This document shows positions 20,286-29,123 of a stretch of 57,033 nucleotides of DNA, piece by piece; the first letter of the stretch is position 1, and each line of letters opens with the position of its first letter. Both the position numbers and the translations under genes were made by a program. The notes under the pieces were generated by a model that was given only the letters and a program-made list of their open reading frames with translations, was not told the DNA's origin and searched no databases. The DNA comes from Akkermansia sp. (GTDB lineage: Bacteria; Verrucomicrobiota; Verrucomicrobiia; Verrucomicrobiales; Akkermansiaceae), in NCBI GenBank assembly GCA_030535875.1, contig JAUNRC010000010.1, positions 1-57,033 on the forward strand, in the 5' to 3' direction.

Positions 20286-20918
20286 ATGGAATGGAATGAT
20301 GGTTTTATGACCCTCTTTCGAGAGGCCGTTGAGCGATATCATGAGCGCCCACAAACGCCGGCAAGCGGATTTTTTCTGCCGGCAGAAGTAAAGCTGCTGA
20401 GTGAAATAGGCTACACTCCGGAAGAAATGCATGCCTACATTCAGGATTACGCCACGATGGGCGATCCATCACCGAGTTCCATACTCCTGATTGCAGCGGC
20501 GCGCCGCACCTTCTTCCTGACCGCACAGCGCGGTATATCCGGCAACGCCCGCCCGGTAAAAGCCGTGGATTTACCCTCAGCGGACGAAGATTTTCAGGGC
20601 ATTCCCTACCTGCCCCGTATCATTCGCAAAGCCGAGGCAAAACTGCACGGCACACTCGATGCCGGCCTGATGTTCTACGATGAGCAGGACCGCGCATTCC
20701 TGCGTGAGCACGGCAACATTCACCCGGCAGACTTCCTCTACTTGGCATGGACAGCCCACGGCGATAAACAAAAAATGGTAAAAGCCGTTCTCACTGCCAT
20801 GAAAGCCGGCTCACCGGATGAGGAAAATACACGCCAACCGCAAATTGCCCCCATTCCTCAACGTAGTACCGCACAACCGACGGGAGCTCCCATCCAAAGT
20901 GAACTCAAATTAGACTGA
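20286..20918 (+). CDS. DUF5069-like protein
   Basis: A 210-residue protein, probably cytosolic. The middle (IPYLPRIIRKAEAKLHGTLD, then HPADFLYLAWTAHGD) resembles DUF5069, a small family of unknown function; the assignment is by eye and tentative. The N-terminal 90 residues carry an AEVKLLSEIGYTPEEMHAYI segment, and the C-terminal 35 are low-complexity proline/glutamine-rich. The start is fixed by the promoter, whose -10 sits 6 bases upstream. The gene at 20935 follows after 16 bases. Confidence 0.6.
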   Translation: MEWNDGFMTLFREAVERYHERPQTPASGFFLPAEVKLLSEIGYTPEEMHAYIQDYATMGDPSPSSILLIAAARRTFFLTAQRGISGNARPVKAVDLPSADEDFQGIPYLPRIIRKAEAKLHGTLDAGLMFYDEQDRAFLREHGNIHPADFLYLAWTAHGDKQKMVKAVLTAMKAGSPDEENTRQPQIAPIPQRSTAQPTGAPIQSELKLD

Positions 20919-21474: not shown

Positions 21475-24450
21475 ATGACCAAACAAACCCTCATCACGCT
21501 GGCTCTGGCCGGTTGCACTCTGGGATTGATAACCGCTTGCTCGGAAGAACAAAATACAGAGCAGAAAGCTGAAGCACCGGCTGTCAAGGTTTTCAAAATC
21601 AAAAAACAACAGGTAACGGATTACGGCGAATGGTTCGGTTACCTGCGAGGCAAGAATGATACCGACATACATCCCAGAGTATCCGGCTTCATTATTTCTC
21701 AGGAATATCAGGATGGTAAGGCTGTAAAGAAGGGAGACATCCTCTTCAAGCTCGACCCTGATTTGTACGAAGCAGAACTGGCACAGGCCGAGGCCAATCT
21801 GAAAGCCGCCGAAGCCACACTCAATGCCGCCATCGCCACACGTGACCAACTTAAACTGGATGTCGCTCGCTATGAGCAACTTCTCAAGAGCTCTGCCGCC
21901 TCCGAGAAACAGGTCAGCGATGCCCGTCATAACCTCAAGGCTGCGGAGGCCAGCGTCAAAGCAGCTCAAGCCAGCATCGAACAAAACAAGGCGGCCGTCA
22001 ATAACGCAAAAATCAATCTCGATTACACCATTATTCGAGCTCCTTACGACGGCATTGTCAGCTCCGCACTTGTTTCGCGCGGTGATCTCGTCAGTTCCGC
22101 CACAAAACTGGCAAACATCACCTCCATCGACCCCATTCGTGTGGATTTCGCCATCAATAGTGACGGTCTGGTCAACTCCTTCCGTCGCTACGGCAATGTG
22201 CAGTCAGCAAAGAAAGATGCCTCTCTCTCGTCACCGGGATTTGACCTCATCCTGGAAGATGGCAGCGTGTACCCCCACAAAGGCACCCTGCTCTCCATGG
22301 AAAGCAAGGTTGCAGCTACCGGCCTGATAGATGTTGAGGGTGAAATCGAAAACCCCGAGAGCCTGCTGCGCGGCGGCATGCCCGTGCGCGTTAAAATTCC
22401 GCTCGGAATGAAAGATGCGCTCCTTGTACCGGCTGCGGCAATTCGCCCGGTCTTACGCAACAATTTCATCATCATTACCGACAGGAATAATGTTCCGCAC
22501 ACAGTACCGGTAGTTATTGACGGCAGGTACGATATCACCGTCACTGAGGAAGACGGCTATACCTCCACACAACAACTTGTTGCCATTAAGGATTACTCTC
22601 GCCCCCTGCTCGATTATTTCCGCGAGTACGGCTATGAAAATCCTGAAGATGTTCCCGTGGTAACAGACCCCGACAATGGGGTGCGCGCCATGAATATCTC
22701 CTCTGCCAACAGCCGACTGGCTGCTGATGATACCACTCCTCGCGGCACCATAAAGCCGGAGCAATTCAGCTTCCGTCCCACGCTGACCGAGGCTGAAAAA
22801 AAAGCCATGGGGCAAGCCTCTAAACAACCGGATGCCACCGAAGCAACCGTTACCGACGTTCAGGCAACTTTGCCTCCGTTCCCGGTAAAGGTTATGAATC
22901 TTGTCCATCAGGATGTAGCCGTCGAAGACGAGTGGTTCGGCACACTGCGAGGTGAGGAAGAAACCGACATCCGTCCGCGAGTAAGCGGCTTCCTCCTGAC
23001 TCAGAACTTCCGTAACGGCACCATCGTTAAAAAAGGAGATGTGCTCTACACCATCGACCCGGCTCCTTATCAGGCTGCTCTTGACCGCGCCAATGCTAAT
23101 CTTCTTTCCGCTCAGGCCGCCGTGGAACAGGCCAAGGCCCGACTGGATATGAGCAAGGCAGACCTCGAACGTTATACTCGCTTGGTTGCCAACACCCCCG
23201 GCGCAGTCTCCGAAAAAGCTGTCACCGATGCCAAGACCGCCGTTCAGACCAACGAGGCCGCCGTGGAAAAAGCCATTGCCACGGTCGAGCAGATGGAAGC
23301 TGCTGTCAATCTCGCTACCATCAACCTCAACTACACTACCATTACAGCTCCCTTTGACGGTCGAGCCGGCATCAGCAAGCCCTCCATCGGAGCACTCGTC
23401 AGTTCAACCGACAGAGAGCCGCTTGTTACCCTCTCCTCCATCAACCCCATTCGCGTGGACTTCAGCGTGAGCGGTAAAGGAGCACTCGCCAGCATTGAGT
23501 CTCTTCAGCACCAGAGCATCACACCGGACAAGCGCCCGCAATTTGACCTTATTCTCAAGGATGGCTCGGTTTATCCGGTCAAGGGCGAAATTGTCTCCAT
23601 GGACAATGCTCTGAGCACCACCCGCGGCACTTTCGGCATGGTCGGCCGCATAGAAAATATCGACCAAGGTCTGCGCAGCGGCATGCCTGTGCGAGTACGA
23701 GCCTCCATGACCCCGATTAAGGGAGCTTTCCTTGTACCGGCTCGAGCACCGATGAACGCCAACGGGCGCGACCTGCTTCTGTTACTCGCCAAGGACAATG
23801 CCCCCACCCCCTTACCGATTACTAAGGGAGCTATGGTTGTCGTCCCGGTGAAGGAAGAAGGCGGTAAGGAAGTCACACAACCCATGTACATCGTCGATGT
23901 TGACCGCAATTCCGTGGTGCCGCTTCTATTGTCAAAAGCCGGGGCCAGCAGCCTCGATGCCATGATTCTCGGCGGAGCCGGCGTGGATAATTGGGATGCC
24001 TTAGTTCTCAAAAATGCCGGAGTCAACGATTACCGCGCTCTCGTGGAGAAATCCGCAGGCAAATCCCTCCCGGATGACCTGCCGCAGCAGGAGCACGCTG
24101 CCGATTGGAAAACGCTCGCTCTTCGTCAGGTCGGTGCTAAAAACAGCAAGGAGCTTGTACTTCGCAACGCAAACGCCAAAGATACCCTCGAACTCATTGC
24201 CCGCGGTCAGGGCTTCGGTTCTGCCATGGAAATGGTGCTCAAGGGTATGGGATTTGACGACATTAACAATGTTCCCGTAATTATCGAGGGGTCCATCATG
24301 GCAGCCAGTCAAACCATGGCAACCAATATGAAAGTCGGAGCCCGAGCTAACAAACTCACTCCCACACCCTTCCATTACGTCGCGCCCAAGACGGTTGTTG
24401 ACTCCGTCACGGCCGATGCCTCCACCTCCGTCGCTCCGCAATTCAAATAA
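21475..24450 (+). CDS. Double RND periplasmic adaptor fusion with repeat tail
   Basis: A 991-residue lipoprotein that contains two complete HlyD/AcrA-type membrane-fusion adaptors in one chain. An N-terminal signal ends in a lipobox (ITAC, Cys22; LAGC at Cys14 is an alternative). Adaptor 1 spans about residues 37-380: GKNDTDIHPRVSGFI, the coiled-coil hairpin, RAPYDGIV, then a beta-barrel with VPAAAIRPV. Adaptor 2 spans about 469-800: GEEETDIRPRVSGFL, a coiled coil, TAPFDGRAG, VPARAPM. Each half ends in a related G-[YF]-x(4)-[DN]VPV segment (about 385 and 930). Residues 822-937 carry 13-residue repeats. Typical adaptors are about 400 residues. The pump gene follows after 20 bases. No TolC-type channel gene is here. 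Confidence 0.9.
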   Translation: MTKQTLITLALAGCTLGLITACSEEQNTEQKAEAPAVKVFKIKKQQVTDYGEWFGYLRGKNDTDIHPRVSGFIISQEYQDGKAVKKGDILFKLDPDLYEAELAQAEANLKAAEATLNAAIATRDQLKLDVARYEQLLKSSAASEKQVSDARHNLKAAEASVKAAQASIEQNKAAVNNAKINLDYTIIRAPYDGIVSSALVSRGDLVSSATKLANITSIDPIRVDFAINSDGLVNSFRRYGNVQSAKKDASLSSPGFDLILEDGSVYPHKGTLLSMESKVAATGLIDVEGEIENPESLLRGGMPVRVKIPLGMKDALLVPAAAIRPVLRNNFIIITDRNNVPHTVPVVIDGRYDITVTEEDGYTSTQQLVAIKDYSRPLLDYFREYGYENPEDVPVVTDPDNGVRAMNISSANSRLAADDTTPRGTIKPEQFSFRPTLTEAEKKAMGQASKQPDATEATVTDVQATLPPFPVKVMNLVHQDVAVEDEWFGTLRGEEETDIRPRVSGFLLTQNFRNGTIVKKGDVLYTIDPAPYQAALDRANANLLSAQAAVEQAKARLDMSKADLERYTRLVANTPGAVSEKAVTDAKTAVQTNEAAVEKAIATVEQMEAAVNLATINLNYTTITAPFDGRAGISKPSIGALVSSTDREPLVTLSSINPIRVDFSVSGKGALASIESLQHQSITPDKRPQFDLILKDGSVYPVKGEIVSMDNALSTTRGTFGMVGRIENIDQGLRSGMPVRVRASMTPIKGAFLVPARAPMNANGRDLLLLLAKDNAPTPLPITKGAMVVVPVKEEGGKEVTQPMYIVDVDRNSVVPLLLSKAGASSLDAMILGGAGVDNWDALVLKNAGVNDYRALVEKSAGKSLPDDLPQQEHAADWKTLALRQVGAKNSKELVLRNANAKDTLELIARGQGFGSAMEMVLKGMGFDDINNVPVIIEGSIMAASQTMATNMKVGARANKLTPTPFHYVAPKTVVDSVTADASTSVAPQFK
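23938..24285 (+). repeat. 13-residue (39-bp) protein repeats in the adaptor tail
   Basis: Units at exact 39-base steps: AGASSLDAMILGG (23938), AGVDNWDALVLKN (23977), AGVNDYRALVEKS (24016). After a degenerate stretch they resume with VGAKNSKELVLRN (24130), ANAKDTLELIARG (24169), QGFGSAMEMVLKG (24208) and MGFDDINNVPVII (24247). The pattern is small-Gly-x-x-x-x-x-[AEM]-[LM]-[VI]-hydrophobic. DNA identity between units is low, so these are old repeats kept at the protein level. Confidence 0.7.
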
Positions 24451-27744: not shown

Positions 27745-29088
27745 TTACTCTTCCTCTTCGCGGTCGGGGTATTCCCATTGCGCACCGGCATCGAGCAAGA
27801 GCTGCCGGATAGTCTCATTCTCAGAGATTTTCAACAGCGGGTTACCATCGTAATCTGTCCCATGCACATTCGCCCCGCACTCAATCAGGTAGCGTACACA
27901 GTCAACGGAATCATTCATCACGGCTATCAGAATGGGCGTATAGCAAAACGACTCAGCCATTATGTTGACATCAGCCCCTTTTTCGACAAGAACGCGAGCC
28001 ATATCGAGCGAATTGTCACGCGCAGCAATCATTAAGGCATTGAATCCGTCATAGGCGGCACCATTCACATCCGCTCCCATAGCCAACAGCTTATCGAACA
28101 TCCGACGATTACCTTCTCCGATGGCATACATCAACGGCGTTAACCCATGATCACCGCCCGGAGATTCAAAATCAGCCCCGGCCTCCAACAACATGTACGC
28201 GATATCATCATGGCCGTTGGCAATGGCCTCGCCCAGCGCCGTATTGCCACCGAGCAAAGACGAATCCGGCCCGGCTCCCGCGGTCAAAAGTGCCTTCACG
28301 ACATCCTTATAACCGTGGCTTGCGGCATAGTACATCGGGGAGAATCCGACACGATGACAATATACCTCCGTATCCGCCCCGGCCTGAATCATCGCACAGG
28401 CTATACCCGTATAGCCCAGATAGAGAGCCTGCATCAGATAGCTTTCATCATAACCATCAAGCAGCGAAGCATTCTGTGGCGTTAACAACGACCGAACCTT
28501 CTCCTCATCGCCGCTCAGGATGGCACTTGCCAGCTCCTCATGCTCAGGCTGCACATCGGGCTTAAATCCCGCAGCAAGTAGTACGTTGATTCCCGCATGA
28601 GCTTTTTCCATCGCTGCATGTGAAAGCACATGGCGCCCGCGACCATATCCCTCGGGACAAAAGCACGACACGCCCACTTTCTGCAACACGCTCAGCACAT
28701 CCCGCTTTCCCTGAAGAGCCAATTTGTACAGGAATGTACCGCTGACACGTTGCAGATTCGCTCCTGCCGCAATCAATACGCGACATATATCTGCATGCCC
28801 CTCCACGGCAGCAAGCTCCAGCAGGCTACCATCTTTATGAGCACGGTCATCGGTACTTCCTGCTTTCAAACAATTTATCACCTGCTCAACATCGCCTTTC
28901 GATACAGCCGTATGAAAAACGAAATGACAACACTCGGGACTTAAACTCTTTAATTCTTGGACAGCAATGGGAGCTTGCTTTTTCGCACGCGATTCAGGCT
29001 CATCATTCACATGTTGATAAAGAGCAAGGCCACCAATGCTGACATTCAAAGACAAGAGAACCAAGCCGAAATAATGTTGAGATTGCAT
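27745..29088 (-). CDS. Ankyrin-repeat protein with N-terminal membrane anchor
   Basis: A 447-residue protein. An N-terminal hydrophobic segment (HYFGLVLLSLNVSIGGLALY) is a signal peptide or anchor. From about residue 60 to the end there are ten or more 33-residue ankyrin units, seen by repeats of G-x-T/N-x-L-x-x-A and LLxAGAD-type turns (LLEAGADFESPGGDHGLTPL, VLVEKGADVNIMAES). The repeats mediate protein binding; the partner is unknown. A TTG at 29103 is open upstream, but the ATG at 29088 lies 6 bases behind a TACACT -10. The gene is divergent from prfA. Confidence 0.88.
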   Translation of the reverse strand: MQSQHYFGLVLLSLNVSIGGLALYQHVNDEPESRAKKQAPIAVQELKSLSPECCHFVFHTAVSKGDVEQVINCLKAGSTDDRAHKDGSLLELAAVEGHADICRVLIAAGANLQRVSGTFLYKLALQGKRDVLSVLQKVGVSCFCPEGYGRGRHVLSHAAMEKAHAGINVLLAAGFKPDVQPEHEELASAILSGDEEKVRSLLTPQNASLLDGYDESYLMQALYLGYTGIACAMIQAGADTEVYCHRVGFSPMYYAASHGYKDVVKALLTAGAGPDSSLLGGNTALGEAIANGHDDIAYMLLEAGADFESPGGDHGLTPLMYAIGEGNRRMFDKLLAMGADVNGAAYDGFNALMIAARDNSLDMARVLVEKGADVNIMAESFCYTPILIAVMNDSVDCVRYLIECGANVHGTDYDGNPLLKISENETIRQLLLDAGAQWEYPDREEEE

Positions 29089-29094
29089 GATGCA

Positions 29095-29123
29095 AGTGTA
29101 CAAAACTCATATCGTGCTGTCAA
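29095..29123 (-). promoter_or_regulatory. Promoter of the ankyrin gene
   Basis: On the minus strand: TTGACA (29123-29118), 17-bp spacer, TACACT (29100-29095). The ATG at 29088 begins 6 bases later, which predicts a leaderless mRNA. Confidence 0.65.

Follow-up and report, generated by a model that had tools for sequence, protein, structure and literature searches.

One polypeptide of an Akkermansia genome, here called FusA, was found to contain two RND-type periplasmic adaptors joined end to end, and its gene was found to lie immediately before that of an AcrB-type RND permease. We consider it quite probable that FusA is a natural covalent adaptor dimer for this permease, three chains of which would give a pump of 3:3:3 composition. 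The channel used by FusA, its transport function and its substrate we infer as part of this best explanation. The analysis covered a window of 57,033 nucleotides, the whole stretch of DNA under study, together with the remainder of the same genome and the genomes of relatives; the features are collected in Table 1.

The fusA open reading frame begins with ATG and runs for 991 codons without an internal stop, exactly at the coordinates given for it by the original prediction, which had described a single lipoprotein holding two complete, diverged RND adaptors. This description was borne out: the RND periplasmic adaptor profile TIGR01730 matched FusA in two stretches (bit score 353.7, the curated cut-off being 94.9), the two halves share 42.6% identity over 345 aligned residues, and the lipobox cysteine, Cys22, was kept in 10 of 10 aligned homologues. 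The lipobox appears from the alignment to be the single lipid anchor for the whole double adaptor, and neither a second signal peptide nor a second lipid anchor for half 2 was seen in the FusA alignment or in the predicted structure. The aligned homologues are 38-79% identical, with linker insertions and deletions in multiples of three; the linker is variable and stays in frame in all relatives.

Table 1. Features of the FusA locus (positions in the window) and the second double adaptor of the same genome
Feature	Location	Strand	Basis
210-aa protein, no family assigned	20286..20918	+	locus reading
169-aa protein, no family assigned, hydrophobic C-terminal segment	20935..21444	+	ORF, locus reading
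FusA, double RND adaptor, 991 aa	21475..24450	+	ORF, profile match, alignment, predicted structure
FusA signal peptide and lipobox, ITAC ending at Cys22	21475..21540	+	alignment
Half 1 adaptor core, residues 37-348 (TIGR01730)	21583..22518	+	profile match
Half 1 alpha-helical hairpin, residues 95-183	21757..22023	+	alignment, predicted structure
Inter-half linker, residues 436-466	22780..22872	+	alignment, predicted structure, selection analysis
Half 2 adaptor core, residues 467-787 (TIGR01730; start approximate)	22873..23835	+	profile match, alignment
Half 2 alpha-helical hairpin, residues 529-619	23059..23331	+	alignment, predicted structure
Half 2 insert, membrane-proximal region, residues 811-924, 13-residue helical repeats	23905..24246	+	sequence, predicted structure
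AcrB/HAE1-type RND permease, 1063 aa	24471..27662	+	profile match
Second double adaptor, 722 aa	own genome contig C32, L031:8837-11005		profile match

The permease gene starts 20 bp downstream of fusA and encodes the proton-relay motifs DD (406-407), KNAI (944) and RMRLRPI (972). An RND permease also directly follows the double adaptor in the relatives' loci that were read; the association with a trimeric pump assumed in the original prediction is supported by this AcrB-like gene. In two genomes (G523 and G525) the last 107 or so bases of the double adaptor gene also lie within the called permease frame (L190:5906-9229 and L192:8428-11751), probably owing to an over-long choice of start. Upstream, the gene for the 169-aa protein ends 30 bp before fusA and keeps this adjacency in most carriers. 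The gene for the 210-aa protein also lies upstream of fusA in most carriers; among the 76 Akkermansia genomes 75 carry it, those without the fusion having it at other sites, and this weakened its candidacy as a dedicated pump accessory. Directly after the permease, on the opposite strand, lies a gene for a 452-aa ankyrin-repeat protein (27745-29103). No channel gene adjoins the FusA operon. Matches to outer-membrane channels (OEP) were located elsewhere in the same genome, on contigs C6, C58 and C69, and on C6, at approximately 20.6-26.7 kb (L029:8581-13291 and after), a related single adaptor, a permease and a TolC-type channel are encoded in a row. The channel of this complete tripartite operon could serve the double adaptor.

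A second double adaptor is encoded in the same genome. It likewise contains two TIGR01730 stretches (445.5 bits), its halves are 36.2% identical, and it is followed by a 1098-aa RND permease (L031:8837-14314), which carries approximately 50 extra residues near its middle relative to the permease of FusA. Relatives were surveyed for the same fusion, as the original prediction had advised, using 76 Akkermansia genomes, one per species: the FusA type was present in 53 and the second double adaptor in 58, with both in 52 genomes, at least one in 59 and neither in 17. In non-carriers the corresponding gene encodes a single adaptor beside the same kind of permease. On a PrfA tree of 70 genomes the 54 carriers were separated from the other 16 by one change, on a branch with an SH-aLRT value of 100. 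The carriers form one clade on this tree, and the double adaptor gene is ancient in its Akkermansia lineage. A survey of 383 genomes from 191 genera of the phylum gave neither double adaptor outside Akkermansia, and a plasmid search returned no record in which one place covered 80% of FusA. In a tree of adaptors the two double adaptors fell into groups split by a branch with support 100/99, and at least two fusion events are therefore required.

How each fusion arose was examined on the same tree. In the best tree the halves of FusA are sisters (support 81/66), as are those of the second double adaptor (94/69), an arrangement which, if real, implies duplication within one gene. However, approximately unbiased (AU) tests did not reject the placement of either FusA half 1 or FusA half 2 with a single-adaptor clade (p = 0.31 and 0.34, respectively). 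The tree data may fit either internal duplication or the joining of two close paralogues; joining of two pre-existing paralogous adaptor genes, which is compatible with the proposed covalent dimer, is given somewhat less than an even chance in view of the sister halves of both systems.

Monomer models were calculated with AlphaFold from shallow alignments made in this analysis, giving a mean pLDDT of 72.5 for FusA and 82.4 for the second double adaptor, and two complete adaptors were predicted in each protein. Each FusA half is modelled with lipoyl, beta-barrel and membrane-proximal domains and a coiled-coil hairpin. The closest solved structures were AcrA, MexA, MexC and MacA, with AcrA and MexA appearing in the list of fold matches chiefly for half 2, and by sequence and predicted fold FusA belongs to the RND adaptor family. 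Outer-membrane channel protomers are tandem duplications with two hairpins each. FusA residues 94-616 superposed on TOprJ1 (Z 15.0, 3.0 Å, 177 residues), and the second double adaptor superposed on CusC (Z 16.5, 2.1 Å, 155 residues). Since both hairpins of a chain superpose on one channel protomer, the hairpins would stand side by side in the manner of such a protomer. This placing is suggestive only, as the relative placing of the halves in models from shallow alignments is weak (pTM 0.43 and 0.66) and layers of long helices easily give chance matches to channels.

The two hairpin tips of FusA are not alike. The motif R-x3-L-x6-S at the tip, which we take to be the channel-docking motif, occurs in AcrA and most of the single adaptors read, and half 1 of FusA carries it in canonical form (R132-x3-L136-x6-S143). 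In half 2 of FusA the tip loop is two residues longer and contains Pro-Gly (R566-x3-L-x8-S579). Across 25 FusA-type sequences the first tip is R-x3-L-x6-S in most and the second is mostly R-x3-L-x8-S/A with Pro-Gly; the x6 spacing is present at both tips in each of the 8 sequences of the second double adaptor. The two-residue Pro-Gly insertion is derived, and the FusA halves are consistently unlike. Half 2 additionally contains the insert listed in Table 1, whose repeat period of 13 residues was reached by none of 2000 shuffles (0/2000) and which AlphaFold predicts as a row of short helices. It is present in most carriers read, is missing from variants of 903-936 aa, and gave no Pfam or NCBIfam match for its 13-residue repeat.

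The changed tip and large insert of half 2, along with the observation that the linker and the second tip are the most variable parts, would suit a protein in which only one half is a working adaptor, the other having lost its docking to channel or pump and acting as a structural spacer or a regulator. Selection on the two halves was compared using FusA and four relatives whose proteins are 70-79% identical to it. The pN/pS ratios, which are rough because synonymous sites are near saturation, were 0.14-0.25 for the core of half 1 and 0.16-0.29 for that of half 2; for the linker, which remains in frame, the similarly rough values were 0.40-0.75, indicating a freer sequence than that of the cores. 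Both cores are under strong purifying selection of similar strength. This similarity, the retention by half 2 of the tip arginine and of most of the leucine and serine positions, and the canonical form of both tips in the second double adaptor make a single working half unlikely, and two working halves in a covalent dimer are preferred.

It was also considered that the chain might be cut after export into two free adaptors, which would then assemble in the ordinary 3:6:3 or in a TriAB-like manner. In favour of such processing, the linker of approximately 30-40 residues has a variable sequence and is modelled as partly disordered. However, half 2 would be released without an anchor or signal of its own, and the linker alignment contains no conspicuous conserved cleavage-like motif; we regard cleavage as distinctly improbable and retain the uncut covalent dimer.

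The original prediction had named two separate genes joined by assembly error as the finding that would overturn it, and no split pair of adaptor genes was seen in the loci examined of the carrier clade. Six matches that looked split proved on direct reading to be single ORFs of 903-1064 aa, and copies at contig ends were noted in two genomes (G400 and G532, the latter within the 53). Over-long genome-search frames (of, for example, 1844, 2069 and 1467) were distrusted because they apparently continue past a stop codon into the following gene, and direct ORF calls were used in their place. The named carriers are Akkermansia metagenome-assembled genomes; roe deer and dairy cattle rectum are the sources of two. 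Although the carriers found are draft genomes and complete single-contig genomes of the genus (e.g. G119, G038, G028, G063 and G142) are without the fusion, the joining of two neighbouring adaptor genes by assembly or sequencing error is refuted to near certainty by the relatives, since the genomes with single adaptors are a different clade and the same open frame recurs in 53 separately assembled genomes of the 76, so that the fusion is due neither to chance nor to misassembly.

That no standard family has such a layout, as had been supposed, did not hold, as a natural fused adaptor (DSY0927), an engineered tandem AcrA and the chain of PDB entry 6vej are precedents. DSY0927 of Desulfitobacterium hafniense is a natural fused dimeric adaptor (PMC4446572, PMC4338810), made of an N-terminal half without a coiled coil and an RND-type half, and is treated under Gram-positive transporters (PMC4338810). 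It resembles FusA in carrying two adaptors in one polypeptide; in FusA, however, both halves are of RND type with hairpins, the host is an outer-membrane bacterium, and an RND permease is encoded alongside. According to Xu et al. (2011), as cited in PMC4446572, an engineered tandem AcrA-AcrA is functional. It too is a covalent adaptor dimer, but man-made, whereas FusA is natural, has diverged halves and is conserved over many species. In PDB entry 6vej, a TriABC entry, a 695-residue chain is named as two membrane fusion proteins; we take it to be an engineered TriA-TriB fusion, and, when aligned to it, the profile of the second double adaptor spans the junction. In TriABC-OpmH of Pseudomonas aeruginosa, TriA and TriB are 36% identical, share one permease and are both needed (PMC4338810), and they have unlike roles on the one pump (PMC13328181). 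The FusA system similarly pairs two different adaptors with one permease, but TriA and TriB are separate chains and FusA is a single ORF in the carriers read. Its halves match AcrA, MexA and MexC in sequence and fold and its permease is of AcrB type, although AcrAB-TolC and MexAB-OprM use single adaptors, six chains per pump. A literature search, covering part of the literature, returned no report of adaptor fusions in Akkermansia. What is new is that a Gram-negative lineage has RND double adaptors, that these arose twice and that the asymmetry of the tips is conserved.

A pump of 3:6:3 composition results from trimeric RND permeases, trimeric channels and adaptors that work as dimers (PMC4446572, PMC4338810), with the adaptor dimer as the functional unit (PMC4338810, PMC4446572, PMC13328181). 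By analogy, one lipid-anchored FusA chain would fill two neighbouring adaptor positions, and three such chains around the trimeric permease would present six hairpins to a trimeric channel of TolC type. The pump would become 3:3:3 instead of the usual 3:6:3, with the adaptor types strictly alternating; this stoichiometry and fixed alternation are the most economical and most likely reading, one in keeping with TriABC and the engineered tandem adaptors, and FusA would then be comparable to TriA and TriB linked into a single chain. The halves would be specialised, half 1 with the ancestral tip and half 2 with the longer Pro-Gly tip and, usually, the helical-repeat insert, each probably serving one non-equivalent channel groove and one non-equivalent pump site. 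The unlike tips of FusA suggest a division of labour such as that of TriA and TriB. The broader proposal, that this Akkermansia clade has twice made six-adaptor pumps all-trimer (3:3:3) by fusing adaptor pairs and that in one system the halves became groove-specialised, is put forward at even odds. If it is true, the adaptor would have come to share the kind of internal duplication that the permease and the outer-membrane channel have long possessed.

So far, cross-links, engineered fusions and TriABC have supplied the arguments on whether the adaptor ring is a trimer of dimers and whether its two positions differ in task. Two independent natural covalent dimers, conserved across dozens of species, support on evolutionary grounds the view that the dimer is the unit. 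In these Akkermansia gut bacteria the double-length adaptor, taking the place of two separate copies in a multidrug-type efflux pump, should make pump assembly simpler, and the position-specific tips of one of the systems would offer a ready system in which each position may be mutated separately without mixing.
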